Shown piece after piece: positions 5,305 through 47,325 of a stretch of DNA of 47,325 nucleotides (position 1 is its first letter; each line of letters begins with the position of its first letter). The position numbers were made by a program, and so were the translations under genes. Under the pieces are notes generated by a model, which was not told the origin of the DNA, did no database searches, and saw nothing but the letters and a program-made list of their open reading frames with translations. The stretch comes from Candidatus Nomurabacteria bacterium RIFCSPHIGHO2_01_FULL_40_20 (GTDB lineage Bacteria > Patescibacteriota > Minisyncoccia > Phycocordibacterales > UBA9973), in contig MFTO01000011.1 of assembly GCA_001786835.1 (NCBI GenBank), forward strand, positions 4,152-51,476. Direction: 5' to 3'.

Positions 5305-5318
5305 ATCTTAGCACAAAA

Positions 5319-5420
5319 ATAAAAAAACGAAAATTGAAAAAATTTAAGCGTCGTGGGTCCCCTGTCTTTTTGTCTCCGAGGACGAAGGCGCAAGAATTTT
5401 TATAATTTTCGTTTTTTTAT
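5319..5420. repeat. Palindromic element, family 5, between rpsI and grpE
   Basis: 17-bp perfect arms ATAAAAAAACGAAAATT/AATTTTCGTTTTTTTAT around a core GCGTCGTGGGT..CCTGTC.TTTTTGTCTCCGAGG.CGAAGGCGC shared with mnmA. Confidence 0.8.
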
Positions 5421-5827
5421 CGTTTTGACCACTGCGGAGCCTTTCTAGCTTTCTTGAGTCCGAATTTTCGGCGCTCTTTGGCTCGAGGGTCTCGTTTTAA
5501 GTAGCCTAGAGTTTTGAGTTTACTGCGTAATTCCCCGTCTGACTTTATTAAAGCGCGAGCCACACCGTGACGCACGGCTTCTGATTGTGAGTGCATTCCT
5601 CCACCCATGACTTTTACTTCTATGCTCCATTTTGACGCAATTTGCCCTTTGACGACTGGGTCATTTATCAAGCGACGTTCATCTTCAGTTTTGAAGTACT
5701 CTTTCGCATCGATGCCATTTACCACAAAAGAAGCTTTGGAAGCAGGAGTAATCCGCACTCGAGCGGTAGAAGTTTTTCTTCGTCCCAATCCTTCAAAATA
5801 TTTTTTCTTGTCTTTTTTTTCTGTCAT
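5417..5827 (-). CDS. rpsI: 30S ribosomal protein S9
   Basis: GRRKTSTARVRI ... KKARKAPQWSKR C-terminus. Confidence 0.97.
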   Translation of the reverse strand: MTEKKDKKKYFEGLGRRKTSTARVRITPASKASFVVNGIDAKEYFKTEDERRLINDPVVKGQIASKWSIEVKVMGGGMHSQSEAVRHGVARALIKSDGELRSKLKTLGYLKRDPRAKERRKFGLKKARKAPQWSKR

Positions 5828-14459: not shown

Positions 14460-15600
14460 CTAAAACAACATCTTTATCATAAAGGACAATAGACTGCCCG
14501 GAAGCGACTAAAACCGATTTTTCAAAAAATACTTTTGCGGAAGACGGTCTTCCGCAGATTACTTGGCAAGATAAAAACTCGCCATGATAGCGAATTTGCG
14601 CAGTATAACCTTTTCCTTCTTTTGGCAAACCCCCAATCCAATTCACATTTTTTATCTGTAAATAAAAATTTGAAAGATTTTTAGCGTCGTGGGTTCCCTG
14701 TCCTTTTTTGTCTCCGAGGGCGAAGGCGCCAAAATCTTTTAAATTTTTATTTTGCGATACATACAAAATATTTTTCTTGATATCTTTACCAATCACATAA
14801 TACGGTTTATCGTTCGGAGTTTTTTTTGTGATAGTAAAACCACGTCGTTCCCCTAAAGTAGAAAATACTACCCCCATATGATGCCCAACAATTTCTTTTG
14901 TTTCAGTAAGTAAAACTTTTCCTTTTTTTTCTTTAATATAGTGTTTCAAAAATTCTTTCAAATCCACTTCACCCAAGAAACAAATCCCTTGGCTATCTTT
15001 TTTCTCTGCTACTGGCAGTTTGTATTTCTTAGCCAAAACGCGAACATCTCTTTTTTTTAAATGCCCTATTGGGAACAAAATTTTGGAGAGTTGTTTTTGA
15101 TTTAAAGTCCAAAGAAAATAACTCTGGTCTTTGGCAGGGTCAAGTCCAGATTTTAGATTAAAGATTTTAGATTTGAGTTTTTTGTTTTTTTGCTTAACTT
15201 TAATCTCTAATCTTTCATCTATTCTCGCGTAGTGCCCAGTCGCCACATAGTCTGCGCCCATAGAAAGCGCTTTTTTAAGAAATGCGCCAAACTTCACTTC
15301 TTTATTGCACATCACATCCGGATTCGGCGTCCGACCAGCTTTGTATTCCGCAATCATATAATCCGCCACCTCTTTTTTGTAAACTTTTTCAAAATCAAAT
15401 GTTAAAAATGGAATGTTCAGATGCGTCGCGACACGCATAGCGTCTAACCGCTCTTCTTCTTCATTACACGGCAAAAAATCCGGATGCCAGGTTCGCATAA
15501 AAACCCCGACTACTTCAAAACCTTGCTTCTTGAGCAAGGTTGCGCTGACAGCAGAGTCTACCCCACCAGAGAGCCCTATAAAAACAATTTTTTTCTTCAT
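14440..15600 (-). CDS. mnmA: tRNA 2-thiouridine synthase MnmA
   Basis: GLSGGVDSAVSATLLKKQGFEVVGVFMRTW; DPAKDQSYFLW; carries an in-frame palindromic insertion. Confidence 0.95.
   Translation of the reverse strand: MKKKIVFIGLSGGVDSAVSATLLKKQGFEVVGVFMRTWHPDFLPCNEEEERLDAMRVATHLNIPFLTFDFEKVYKKEVADYMIAEYKAGRTPNPDVMCNKEVKFGAFLKKALSMGADYVATGHYARIDERLEIKVKQKNKKLKSKIFNLKSGLDPAKDQSYFLWTLNQKQLSKILFPIGHLKKRDVRVLAKKYKLPVAEKKDSQGICFLGEVDLKEFLKHYIKEKKGKVLLTETKEIVGHHMGVVFSTLGERRGFTITKKTPNDKPYYVIGKDIKKNILYVSQNKNLKDFGAFALGDKKGQGTHDAKNLSNFYLQIKNVNWIGGLPKEGKGYTAQIRYHGEFLSCQVICGRPSSAKVFFEKSVLVASGQSIVLYDKDVVLGGGIVV
14660..14752. repeat. Palindromic element, family 5, in-frame inside mnmA
   Basis: 22-nt arms AAATAAAAATTTGAAAGATTTT/AAAATCTTTTAAATTTTTATTT (1 mismatch); core shared with 5346-5392. 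Confidence 0.85.
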
Positions 15601-24504: not shown

Positions 24505-25068
24505 TTATGGGTTGGGTGGAGGTGGAGGTGGAGGTGGAGAAGTGTCGGTATCTGTATTTGGGTCCGGGTTCGGCGGAGGAATAGTTTCGGGCTTGGCCAA
24601 TTCAACAATAGTAAAATCTTTTTCTTTTTCCACTGTTATCTTGGAAACTTTCTGTTCGCCTAAAATACTTTTTACAACATATACTTCCCCTTCTTTCGGT
24701 TCTTCAATTACGGAGGCTATGACGACTTTGTTATCACCTAAAAATAATCCGGTCCCTAAAATTTTATCTTCGCTCCCGTCGGCATTTGCTCCTTTCAAAA
24801 ATAAAGTGACCACGAGCGGTTTTATGGCTTTCAAATCTTCCAACAACTTTTTCTGTTCAGCGGATAATTCTTGAGTCTTGATAATTGTCTCTCCGGGCAC
24901 AATTTTCTCCACTGTCTCTCGCACTATCTGGGTCACCGGAATGGTGACAGACTCGGGGGCTTGTTCCATCAAAGTCACCGTGGTTATGCCGGTGGCAATA
25001 GAAATAACGAAAGAAAGCAGTATCGCCAAAAGTATCAGCTGTGATTTGTTTAAATCCTTTAGGTCCAT
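24505..25068 (-). CDS. Membrane-anchored protein with C-terminal Pro/Asn/Asp-rich tail
   Basis: 187 aa; N-terminal TM helix; tail [24 protein letters not shown]. Confidence 0.6.
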
Positions 25069-25148
25069 CCCGTACGAAATCCTACTATTATTTTTTCTAG
25101 TAAGACTTATTTTACCTCATAAGTGAACCCCGTAATTTCGTACGGGAT
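25067..25148 (-). repeat. Family 1 TIR element overlapping the start codon of the 187-aa gene
   Basis: Perfect 14-bp TIR ATCCCGTACGAAAT/ATTTCGTACGGGAT. Confidence 0.9.
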
Positions 25149-25201
25149 CCATACCCTAACTATACCACTTTTTTAATTTTTTCAAAATATTAAAAATAAG
25201 A

Positions 25202-25722: not shown

Positions 25723-27153
25723 CTAATAATACCACTTTCTGAGTTTGGACAAAATGCTTTCCATAACTTTGACCGTGTGGTCAATATCTCTCTTTTCAGT
25801 GTCTCTTCCGAGCGAAAATCGCAAGCTGGTTAGATTTTCTTTGCGCAATGCCCCGATCACGTGCGACGGCTTTTTGTCACCTGATTTGCAAGCGCTTTTT
25901 TCGGAAATGTAAATCCCACGGGCGGAGAGCTCGAGCACCAGCAGGTCGCTTGGAATTTTAGCAATTGTGATATTCACATTGTTTGGTAGTCTGTCTTCCT
26001 TATCGCCATTTAAAACTATTCTATAATTCTGCAGAATTAGAGAATGCTCAAGTAAGTGCAAAAAATAATCACGCAGTTTTGTTAAACGTTTTGTTTCGCT
26101 CTCTTTCATACTCTCTGTGATTTGGAGCGCCTCCGCGAGCCCCACTATAGCAGGCAAATTCTCTGTCCCCGAGCGCATTCCAAACTCTTGCTCTCCGCCA
26201 TACACTATATCTCCTATCGGTGTTCCTTTTCTTATGTATAGCGCCCCCACTCCTTTCGGCCCATAAATTTTCGCGCCATTGAAAGACATCAAATCCACAC
26301 CCAGCTTTTGCACATCTATCGGCAAATAATTCATCGCTTGCGTAGCGTCGGTGTGAAAAAAAGGCAAAAGTGGTAATTTAGAGGCTTGGGAGAGCGACGG
26401 CTCGAGCACGAGGAATTTTTCAGCAGAAAAATATCCGTACTCTAAATTACCACTTTTGCCTTTTCTATATTGCCTTATCTCCTTCGCAATCTCCCTTATC
26501 GGCTGAATCGTGCCGATTTCGTTATTGGCATACATTACCGAAACCAAAACAGTATTTTTCTTTATCGCTTTTTTAATTTTTTTAGGGTCTACTATTCCAT
26601 TCGGTTCAACTGGAATGTAGCTAACCTCTGCACGTTTAGTTTTTTCTAAATGCTTGCAAACTTCCAGCACGGAGGCATGTTCTATGTTCGTCGTAATTAT
26701 GTGTGGAGCAAGCAAGCGATTTTTTAGTGTCTGGTTGAGACCGCTCTCCTTAGAAGATAATGCGCGGGCGACCCGAAGACCGAAAAAATCGCTTGCTTGC
26801 ATAGCACAGATAACTCCAAGTACGCCCAGATTATTGGATTCCGTAGCTCCAGAAGTAAAAATTATCTCTCTTTTTTGCGCTTTTAAAATTTCCGCCACAC
26901 GCTCACGCGCGTCCTCTAAAATTTTTTTATTTTGCACACCCAGTTCATGTATTGCGCCGGTATTGGCAAAATGCACACTGGAGACTTTAGCTATAATCTC
27001 TAAAACTCGCGCATCAATCGGAGTCGCCGAAGCATTGTCTAGGTATACCCCGTTAGTAGATTTTGGTAATACTCGCTTTGCGAGCGCACTTTGTGCCTTA
27101 CCAAAACTCACTACAGGGTATATTATTTTCTTTTTTCCGTTTGATTTAGACAT
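25723..27153 (-). CDS. Cysteine desulfurase (NifS/IscS-like) with three palindrome-derived segments
   Basis: YLDNASATPID; TSGATESNNLG; HTDATQAMNYLPIDV; MSFNGAKIYGPKGVGALY; RSGTENLPAIVG; start moved to MSKSNGKKK. Confidence 0.9.
   Translation of the reverse strand: MSKSNGKKKIIYPVVSFGKAQSALAKRVLPKSTNGVYLDNASATPIDARVLEIIAKVSSVHFANTGAIHELGVQNKKILEDARERVAEILKAQKREIIFTSGATESNNLGVLGVICAMQASDFFGLRVARALSSKESGLNQTLKNRLLAPHIITTNIEHASVLEVCKHLEKTKRAEVSYIPVEPNGIVDPKKIKKAIKKNTVLVSVMYANNEIGTIQPIREIAKEIRQYRKGKSGNLEYGYFSAEKFLVLEPSLSQASKLPLLPFFHTDATQAMNYLPIDVQKLGVDLMSFNGAKIYGPKGVGALYIRKGTPIGDIVYGGEQEFGMRSGTENLPAIVGLAEALQITESMKESETKRLTKLRDYFLHLLEHSLILQNYRIVLNGDKEDRLPNNVNITIAKIPSDLLVLELSARGIYISEKSACKSGDKKPSHVIGALRKENLTSLRFSLGRDTEKRDIDHTVKVMESILSKLRKWYY
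26359..26464. repeat. Palindromic element, family 4, in-frame in the cysteine desulfurase
   Basis: Perfect 25-bp arms AAAAGGCAAAAGTGGTAATTTAGAG/CTCTAAATTACCACTTTTGCCTTTT; internal ATTTTTCAGCAGAAAAAT. Confidence 0.92.
26707..26800. repeat. Palindromic element in-frame in the cysteine desulfurase
   Basis: Perfect 18-bp arms GCAAGCAAGCGATTTTTT/AAAAAATCGCTTGCTTGC. Confidence 0.92.
27048..27118. repeat. Palindromic element, family 3, in the N-terminal coding region of the cysteine desulfurase
   Basis: CCCGTTAGTAGATTTTGGTAATAC...TTACCAAAACTCACTACAGGG; resembles 419-492. Confidence 0.8.
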
Positions 27154-27181
27154 AAAAGTAGTATATATTGAAAAGACATGG

Positions 27182-27262
27182 ATCCCGTACGAAATTACGA
27201 GCTCCATTTACAACATAACATAATTCTGTCTCAAAAAATAATGACGGGATTTCGTACGGGAT
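27182..27262 (+). repeat. Family 1 TIR element overlapping the start codon of the DUF4446-like gene
   Basis: Perfect 14-bp TIR ATCCCGTACGAAAT/ATTTCGTACGGGAT; the terminal AT plus G forms the ATG. Confidence 0.9.
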
Positions 27263-32718: not shown

Positions 32719-32742
32719 GCACAAAATGAGTAGCATTTTGTG

Positions 32743-32824
32743 TGACTCGAAAGCCGGAGCATAGCGATGCGAGGCGGGGTCGCAGGATTTTTCAGCAGAA
32801 AAATACCTGTGACCGAGTCCCTCC
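32743..32824. repeat. Palindromic element, family 4, intergenic
   Basis: GGTCGCAGG ATTTTTCAGCAGAAAAAT A CCTGTGACC plus outer GACTCG/CGAGTC; 19-nt core (with trailing A) identical to 26415-26433. Confidence 0.75.
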
Positions 32825-32841
32825 CATAATGAATTCACTGT

Positions 32842-40773: not shown

Positions 40774-42057
40774 TTATTTTATAAATAGATTGCTAATTTT
40801 ATTGCTCGCATCCCGAAGAGATGCCTCTGAGCTTAAGCTATTCGATAAAATATTGTCTATCATCTTTCTGAACACAGCGTCCGACTCTGTCGGCGATGGA
40901 TCAAGCCAACTTTTGGCAAATAAAGCCGAGGCATAAAAAGTAGGATAAAATGCGTCCGTAGGCTTAAGAGCAAGCAAGTCGCGCCTTGCAGGAGCTGTGC
41001 CTATGGTATTGGCATAGGGAAGAGCAAAGTTGCCGGTTGACATCAAACTCGCCACCGTAAGCGCGCTATTAAAATTCTTGGAAAAAGCCGATACCGCCAA
41101 ACCTATCACTCTCGACGAAGTGGCTTTGAAATTAGAATTTTTTAGTTGCGGGACCGGAGAAGCCAGAAAATCTTGATTTGGATTTTTATTTACAAGAGTC
41201 CGAAGTTCGCTCGCGAAACCGAAATAAAATGCCAGCTTCTCTGCGCTGAAAAAATCTTGCGAAATCGGCAGAGACCGATTCCAGGAATATTCGGCGCTCA
41301 AAGGATTGGAAAAATTAGTGAAGAAATCAAGCGTAGCGCTTATTTTGTCGCTATCGCTTAGGGCCGAGTAAAATCTCCCCCCTTCTTCTTTTACTATTTT
41401 GTTCCCTGTCTGCAGAAAAAGCATCGCCAAAATATCTTTGGCGTGTAAAATATTAAAATATTGCCCGAGTCCTACCGCGCCCTTGATTATCTGACTCGAA
41501 TCGTCTGTCTTTGTAATTACTCGCGCCATTTCAACCATCTCGCTCCAATTTGCCGGCGGATACACTATACCGCTATCGTTTAGCATGCTTCTGTTGTAAT
41601 ACATTACAAGCGGGTCAATGGCTATCGGAAAAGCCAAAATCCCTTTGGAAGTCAGAAAAACTTCTCCTGCCCCGGCAAAAGTATTTTTAAAATTCGCGAC
41701 CGGAAAGCTCTCGTAGGGTATTGTATATATTTTGTTGCTGTAATTATACGCTAAGTAGTCTGGCAAAAAAAATAAATCTGGACCCTTACCCGAGGCTAGC
41801 GCTTCAAGCAAATCTCGGTCGAAGTTTTCAGGAGATTTCTGTTCGTATTTTATAGTATATATTTTATAAGTATCATTGAAATCTTGCACCATCTCATGCA
41901 TGTAATCCGACTGAACTGTGCCCCACAGCACCACTGTGCCACCGGATCCTTCTTTTTGTTTCTTATCACCAAGTGGAATCGCACCAGAGAAAACCAAAAT
42001 ACCAAAAACGGCCAACGCCATAAATATTACTAAAACTATCATCTGAAAGTTTTTCAT
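40774..42057 (-). CDS. Extracellular solute-binding protein, family 1-like lipoprotein/membrane-anchored
   Basis: VVLWGTVQSDYMHEMVQDFNDTYKIYTIKYEQ...GKGPDLFFLPDYLAYNYSNK...FPIAIDPLVMYYNRSMLNDSGIVYPPANWSEMVEMARVIT. Confidence 0.85.
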   Translation of the reverse strand: MKNFQMIVLVIFMALAVFGILVFSGAIPLGDKKQKEGSGGTVVLWGTVQSDYMHEMVQDFNDTYKIYTIKYEQKSPENFDRDLLEALASGKGPDLFFLPDYLAYNYSNKIYTIPYESFPVANFKNTFAGAGEVFLTSKGILAFPIAIDPLVMYYNRSMLNDSGIVYPPANWSEMVEMARVITKTDDSSQIIKGAVGLGQYFNILHAKDILAMLFLQTGNKIVKEEGGRFYSALSDSDKISATLDFFTNFSNPLSAEYSWNRSLPISQDFFSAEKLAFYFGFASELRTLVNKNPNQDFLASPVPQLKNSNFKATSSRVIGLAVSAFSKNFNSALTVASLMSTGNFALPYANTIGTAPARRDLLALKPTDAFYPTFYASALFAKSWLDPSPTESDAVFRKMIDNILSNSLSSEASLRDASNKISNLFIK

Positions 42058-42068
42058 GATTGATTTTT

Positions 42069-42180
42069 AACGAATGAAATGAATATAAAAATCATCACCC
42101 TGTTAAATGTCCTTCGGACAATTTTTGCTTCAGAAAAATTATTTAACAGGGTTAGGAAAATCATATTCGTTTCACTCATT
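42069..42180 (-). repeat. Palindromic element, family 2 (CCCTGTTAAAT...ATTTAACAGGG), upstream of the solute-binding protein
   Basis: Nested inverted repeat; core and TTTTTATATTCATTTCATTC(A/G)TTAAAAATCA arm shared with 46379-46500. Confidence 0.88.
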
Positions 42181-46378: not shown

Positions 46379-46500
46379 AATGAGCGTAGCGAATATATTT
46401 TAACAACCCTGTTAAATGCCCTTCAGGCAATTTTTGCTTTTGCAAAAATTATTTAACAGGGTAAAGATTTTTATATTCATTTCATTCATTAAAAATCATT
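46379..46500 (+). repeat. Palindromic element, family 2, upstream of the S1-like gene
   Basis: CCCTGTTAAATGCCCTTCAGGCAATTTTTGC...AAAATTATTTAACAGGGT and an outer arm shared with 42069-42180. Confidence 0.88.
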
Positions 46501-46501
46501 T

Positions 46502-47325
46502 ATGCAAAAAGAAGAAACAGTAATAACAGAAAATTTGATACTAAAATCTATTGCGGACCGAAGTCGCACTAAGCCGGAAATCGAGTCTCTCGTGGAAGGA
46601 CCGGTGATTTTAATACAAAAATCATCTGTGTATGTGGACCTATCCCCTTTCGGCACAGGTATTATTTACGGACGCGAATTCATCAACGCCAAGGATATTA
46701 TTAAAAAAATAAATCTGGGTGACATCATCAAAGCCAAGGTAGTGGAGACAGAGAACGAAGATGGCTATATTGAACTTTCCTTAAAAGAAGCAAAACAAGC
46801 GCTCACTTGGAGTGAAGCGGAAAAGGCAATCAAAGAGAAAACAATACTGGAGCTCGAAGTCAAAGACGCAAACAAGGGCGGACTGATATTGGAGTGGCAA
46901 GGTCTCCAAGGATTCCTACCCGCTTCCCAACTCAAAGCCGAACACTACCCTCGTGTGCTTGATTCGGATAAAGACAAAATTTTGAAAGAACTGAAAAAAC
47001 TAGTCGGACAAAAAATAGGGGTTATGATTATTTCCACTATTCCCAAAGAGGGCAAGCTTATATTTTCTGAAAAAGACAACGACGGAGAAGAGAAAAAAGA
47101 AATCCTCGGCAAATACAATGTAGGCGACGAACTTCTCTGCACCATAGCGGGAATCGTGGACTTTGGAATATTCTTAAAATTAGAAGACGGCTTGGAAGGG
47201 TTGGTTCATATTTCCGAACTTGACTGGGGACTAGTAGAAGACCCGCGAGTACTTTTTAAGGTAGGTGAACAAATTCGCGCCAAAGTAATCGAAATCAAAG
47301 ATGGAAAAGTATCGCTCTCCATCAA
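46502..47325 (+). CDS. rpsA: S1-domain protein (30S ribosomal protein S1-like), 3' truncated by the window
   Basis: Manual translation MQKEETVITENLILKSIADRSRTKPEIESLVEG...; S1 repeats ending VGDELLCTIAGIVDFGIFLKLEDGLEGLVHISEL; no stop before 47325. Confidence 0.88.
   Translation, partial: MQKEETVITENLILKSIADRSRTKPEIESLVEGPVILIQKSSVYVDLSPFGTGIIYGREFINAKDIIKKINLGDIIKAKVVETENEDGYIELSLKEAKQALTWSEAEKAIKEKTILELEVKDANKGGLILEWQGLQGFLPASQLKAEHYPRVLDSDKDKILKELKKLVGQKIGVMIISTIPKEGKLIFSEKDNDGEEKKEILGKYNVGDELLCTIAGIVDFGIFLKLEDGLEGLVHISELDWGLVEDPRVLFKVGEQIRAKVIEIKDGKVSLSI

Follow-up and report, generated by a model that had tools for sequence, protein, structure and literature searches.

A dispersed repeat of Patescibacteria with a conserved core and copy-specific palindromic arms, found in frame in a cysteine desulfurase gene

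How does the gene for a conserved enzyme come to carry a perfect palindrome within its open reading frame, and what keeps the two arms of such a palindrome matched? These questions are raised by positions 26359-26464 of the window, i.e. the whole stretch of 47,325 nucleotides analysed here from Candidatus Nomurabacteria bacterium RIFCSPHIGHO2_01_FULL_40_20 (contig MFTO01000011.1). The source assembly (G000) is a 551-kb draft of 21 contigs that is 78% complete.

The palindrome and its host gene

Based on repeat search, folding and a covariance model, the element comprises 106 bases (26359-26464) with its core on the plus strand. The left arm (26359-26383, plus strand; AAAAGGCAAAAGTGGTAATTTAGAG) forms the 5' side of a stem, P1, and is site-specific, its sequence differing at all other copies. 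The right arm (26440-26464, plus strand) forms the 3' side of P1 and is the perfect reverse complement of the left arm. The arms enclose a conserved core of 56 nt (26384-26439, plus strand), which recurs in the genome, scores 100.9 bits with covariance model R1 and lies within a three-way junction. The core contains a GC-rich hairpin with a GA/GA internal loop (P2; 26387-26408, plus strand) and an AT-rich hairpin with ATTTTTCAGCAGAAAAAT (P3; 26409-26437, plus strand). The initial annotation had described perfect 25-nt arms around 56 nt in an intact reading frame, and this description holds, as the arms are 100% complementary by repeat search and the frame is open. Folded as DNA, 26359-26464 reaches -37.9 kcal/mol compared with -10.1 +/- 2.5 kcal/mol for dinucleotide shuffles (z -11.1), and 0 of 200 shuffles were as low.

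The host gene (25723-27207, minus strand) is an open frame of 494 aa that matches PF00266 (aminotransferase class V) as well as cysteine desulfurases of solved structure, and it encodes a group-I cysteine desulfurase (IscS/NifS group). Because the core strand is plus and the gene is on the minus strand, the insert is antisense to its host. Solved cysteine desulfurases align to the host protein in three blocks (residues 53-137, 168-246 and 283-490). Residues 247-282 are thus unmatched by solved structures, and the insert corresponds to about residues 248-283, in line with the earlier claim that the encoded segment is extra relative to known NifS/IscS-type enzymes. By coordinate arithmetic, the unmatched residues 138-167 and 247-282 correspond to palindromes at 26708-26801 and 26359-26464, respectively. 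In an AlphaFold2 model, insert residues 253-277 have pLDDT values below 50, and this low-confidence loop connects a helix (237-252) to the HTDATQA-bearing strand (283-287). The insert is probably a disordered loop in the modelled enzyme.

Among 30 relatives, the same loop contains the element in either orientation, or one of several unrelated palindromes, or is short; a conserved, non-palindromic segment was not found. The cysteine desulfurase loop is an insertion hot spot. A loop of fmt behaves in the same way, with the element recurring and unrelated palindromes in other species. Examples of the unrelated palindromes in the cysteine desulfurase (L159-L188) and fmt (L350-L378) loops are CCTCACCC...GGAGAGG, GGTCTGGC...GAGGACC and AAGGCCTTGCCTC...GAGGCAAGGCC.

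The host gene holds further palindromes that the initial annotation had overlooked. The core of the insert at 26708-26801 recurs in 8 of 80 genus genomes with 75-83% identity, mostly without the arms, and, judged from sequence, this insert may therefore represent a second repeat family constructed in the same way. Another, small palindrome (27061-27106) lies within the N-terminal extension, and a palindrome at the 5' end of the gene (27182-27262; ATCCCGTACGAAAT) has inverted relatives across the gene at 25057-25152.

A dispersed core with copy-specific arms

The 19-mer ATTTTTCAGCAGAAAAATA at 26415-26433 occurs again at 32787-32805, as had been noticed initially; the second occurrence is contained in a diverged version of the entire element (32731-32831, plus strand; 38.1 bits, E 3e-8), which lies just after a tRNA gene identified with Rfam. 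The initial annotation had not recognised that the full core of 70 nt recurs, at 5 other places in the assembly with 85-92% identity, nor that the arms change from copy to copy. With the covariance model, 12 copies are detected in G000 and 2-24 in each of nine relatives. At the DNA level, the core is present in 114 of the 147 genomes of the same family, and copies occur in 13 of 287 genomes sampled across the phylum (7 in the order of the window and 6 scattered elsewhere). The public matches that were listed and named are Patescibacteria, among them Nomura-, Zambryski-, Taylor-, Yonath-, Moran-, Wildermuth-, Kaiser- and Nealsonbacteria. The core search gave no match on phages, plasmids or IMG/VR viral contigs, and carriage by such vehicles was, therefore, set aside. 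No Rfam family matches the element in an Rfam search, and a search of open-licence papers returned nothing on such a repeat in Patescibacteria.

The diverged copy in the window belongs to a subfamily with a AGCCGGAGC...GCGAGGCGGGGTCGCGG core that also includes L321, L323, L340 and L343; in two of its members (the window copy and L321), a tRNA gene lies directly upstream. Inverted pairs of copies ~120-150 bp apart (G047:C6:67770/67891, G060:C36:4459/4616, G409:C4:55014/55139 and G344:C65:1218/1372) recall REPINs. Elsewhere in the window, 5312-5427 and 14653-14759 form a pair of repeats of the same design built on another core (GCGTCGTGGGTCCC...), with differing self-complementary arms, while 42050-42180 and 46406-46509 share a likewise T-shaped repeat in which arms ACCCTGTTAAAT enclose one GC and one AT hairpin.

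In a three-way junction model from 69 copies, P1 consists of the variable arms, P2 of the GC hairpin with its tandem GA loop and P3 of the AT hairpin. All 18 pairs of P1 vary on both sides, and 89.5% of the cells are paired across the 69 copies; P1 covariation is 0.603 compared with 0.166 after shuffling and at most 0.149 on sliding. P2 covaries at 6 of 7 pairs, with changes on both sides. P3 is mostly invariant, a conservation that is partly imposed by the pattern with which the loci had been retrieved, and its closing pair covaries (C-G/T-A). The conserved part of the element is a three-way-junction core of ~60 nt, sometimes accompanied by a subfamily-specific inner stem. Among the stem mismatches, G-T is more frequent than A-C (205 vs 90). 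Thus, some selection on stem folding is likely, and this counts against a purely copying origin.

The arms differ between copies and match within a copy. Identity of the outer 12 arm positions between copies is 0.363, where base composition alone predicts 0.372, while Watson-Crick complementarity of the arms is 0.82 within a copy (median 0.92) and 0.357 between different copies. The same holds in a subfamily that shares an inner unit (TAGTCTTAT.../...GAAGAGCTA): its outer arms are unique and near-perfect (e.g. AATTAAAATGCAAA/TTTGCATTTTAATT and AACAAATCTGGAAA/TTTCCAGATTTGTT), with complementarity of 0.83 within and 0.54 between copies. By eye, the near-identical copies L072 and L106 on one contig have in common an inner arm of ~40 nt on each side; beyond it, each continues into an outer palindrome of about 18-22 bp that differs from that of the other copy. 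Arms shared without shared flanks are rare (70 of 17,391 pairs of 187 copies). At two different loci (G014), however, L202 and L347 share outer arms and core and have differing inner arms that are still paired. That the arms are made at the insertion site, or very near it, is partly supported by the copy-specific outer arms.

Where insertions are orthologous, 61 positions have changed on both arms and still pair, compared with 8.2 expected under independence, and 39 changes are one-sided; these counts come from cysteine desulfurase, fmt, mnmA, uvrD, tsaD and other sites, the pairs lack phylogenetic independence, and separate insertions at one site would yield a similar pattern. For instance, three orthologous fmt copies have the arms GAAATCTATGATG, GAAATCTGGGATG and GAAGTCCAGAATG, each with a near-exact partner on the opposite side. 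At the orthologous sites L189/L192 and L193/L037, the arms are identical over 18 pairs. The core is, therefore, dispersed, while the arms are copy-specific, self-complementary and still matched while changing at shared sites.

Among 115 copies chosen regardless of genes, 21 (about 18%) lie in long ORFs, with 11 in antisense and 10 in sense orientation. Since both orientations are equally common in genes, a role as RNA of the sense strand need not be assumed there. By eye, the host genes include those for cysteine desulfurase, TsaD, PheT, MnmA, UvrD and RecG. Five of the 6 reading frames of the core contain no stop codon (mean of shuffles 2.7; P(>=5) 0.048). Copies in both orientations are thus present within conserved genes as open in-frame loops, and disorder of these loops is probable.

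Origin and upkeep of the arms

Twenty-two comparisons of filled and empty sites bear on where the arms come from; the set is incomplete because the combined flank search scored few candidates per genome. Both arms were never present in the empty site, and one arm was at times. A one-arm match reached p<=0.03 in 8 of 44 tests, with relatives that are distant and AT-rich DNA that is noisy, and one of the 8 (L195/L242) appears by eye to contain a decayed copy. At the cleanest empty site, upstream of recA in G125 (L193/L218), neither arm is present; the more distant G111 has similar sequence on the left side of this site. The empty sites of fmt and cysteine desulfurase show no unusual tendency to form hairpins. 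For L072, L106 and L084, no close relative with an empty site was found. The one-arm matches are suggestive only. Among the possible sources of the arms, an inverted copy of one flank has the most support, ahead of arms carried along with the core, and a pre-existing hairpin comes last.

We lean, if only slightly, towards the following explanation. The element would be a small non-autonomous hairpin repeat of Patescibacteria that is tolerated in proteins as disordered loops; its arms would be copied from flanking DNA in inverted form and then maintained, in both cases by replication template switching. A folded, single-stranded core hairpin would land at a new place. As it inserts, or shortly afterwards, the replicating strand would snap back on the hairpin and use 10-30 nt of one flank as the template for an inverted copy, giving rise to a perfect, site-specific stem. 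Later template switches would hold the arms matched. In genes, the insert would survive if a helix-strand loop tolerates ~30 extra residues and if its length preserves the frame, and the stop-free frames of the core would aid this survival. In other systems, template switching both makes and keeps perfect stems (PMC8794818). Counting against this explanation are the empty site in G125, which has neither arm, the excess of G-T mismatches and the outer arms that L202 and L347 have in common, and the one-arm comparison is weak. A bolder version, which we regard as possible and rather doubtful, is that insertion routinely generates an inverted instead of a direct target duplication, such that each copy builds its palindrome from local DNA and may carry old inner arms onward. 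Among open-licence papers, our literature search found no applicable report of inverted target duplication. A mobilising gene was not identified: the Y1 transposase domain PF01797 was not detected in four draft genomes with copies (G000, G123, G060 and G383) and was detected in others. Mobilisation in cis by a RAYT is, therefore, not supported.

Four other explanations were weighed. The element could be a structured RNA under selection, such as a terminator, an mRNA stabiliser or a protein-binding RNA, with arms that vary like the P1 of a riboswitch and are kept paired by compensatory substitution. The strong covariation, which includes P2, and the excess of G-T over A-C mismatches fit this idea, as do, by eye, plain terminator-like hairpins at the rpmE site in other species (L246 and L249). 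However, the orientation in genes is not consistent, slow compensation does not account for the unrelated outer arms of near-identical copies within a genome, and Rfam contains no match; overall, we consider a structured RNA unlikely. A selfish palindrome of the Rickettsia type, in which the arms are part of the mobile unit and look different because they drift quickly with pairing kept, receives slightly less credence from us. Carried arms would account for the shared outer arms of L202 and L347 at different loci and for the absence of either arm from the empty site in G125, whereas the scarcity of copies with common arms and different flanks speaks against them. Moreover, the arms are stable at the orthologous sites L189/L192 and L193/L037, and fast drift is thus not seen.

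If the core instead inserted into the tip of a hairpin that was already there, the arms would be older than the insertion. Their symmetry around the core and the plain hairpins at some intergenic sites in other species are compatible with this, but hairpins are not abundant at the empty sites of fmt and cysteine desulfurase, and none of the filled/empty pairs has both arms in the empty site, which makes this order of events very improbable. Finally, loop length does vary among relatives, as it would in an ordinary variable enzyme loop with a fortuitous palindrome. We give practically no weight to such a loop, and a chance palindrome is ruled out by the perfect 25-bp arms, the fold (z -11) and the dispersal of the core in the genome and the family. 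The copying of a flank during or after insertion, thus, remains the explanation that we prefer.

Relation to known repeats and implications

Rickettsia palindromic elements (RPEs) are 105-146 bp long and located in genes; they contain open frames and end in terminal inverted repeats of their own (PMC2229807), and the identity of their palindromes reportedly decays over time (PMC6649704). The initial annotation had drawn an analogy to RPEs. As a description of behaviour, the analogy stands: in both cases, a dispersed palindrome of ~100-150 bp is found between genes or, in frame and without stops, in conserved genes of a reduced, host-associated lineage, and the peptide insert is tolerated (PMC2229807). 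As family membership, it is not supported. While RPEs are described with conserved terminal inverted repeats and decaying palindromes, it is the core that is conserved here, and the arms are specific to each site and change without losing their complementarity. Because the conserved-arm feature fails, we do not classify the element as an RPE.

The element also resembles REPs and REPINs mobilised by RAYTs (Y1) in being a dispersed, non-autonomous hairpin repeat that in some cases forms inverted pairs ~120-150 bp apart. However, REPs are 20-40 bp long with a conserved palindrome and mostly extragenic (PMC3733652), whereas the palindromic arms here are not conserved and PF01797 was not detected in the four copy-bearing genomes. 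Bacterial MITEs (ERIC, Correia/NEMIS and RUP) are likewise small non-autonomous repeats, and some have open frames fused within genes (PMC2229807). In contrast to the constant terminal repeats of MITEs, the arms here are not constant between copies, and the direct target duplication of several MITEs was not seen by eye in the inspected copies or at the L193/L218 site. Quasi-palindrome and template-switch mutations create perfect inverted copies of nearby sequence and hold stems matched (PMC8794818, PMC7202029); they are a mutational process and not a dispersed element, while the process suggested here is tied to a conserved mobile core. Lastly, the coding palindromes of Nematomorpha mitochondria are perfect palindromes within protein genes with maintained arms (PMC6649704), but they lack a conserved core and are not dispersed. 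There is a real chance that the way in which the arms are made is new.

If our explanation is true, selfish palindromes within genes, as known from Rickettsia, would also be present in a major uncultured branch of the Bacteria, with the anatomy reversed, i.e. with a constant core and arms made on site. The copies would provide many natural replicates of the birth and upkeep of palindromes in essential genes, and template switching and selection on the stem could, therefore, be tested against each other by comparison. The repeated acceptance of unrelated palindromes by the same enzyme loops marks where proteins tolerate parasites that act at the level of DNA. In the annotation of Patescibacteria, such inserts are to be expected.
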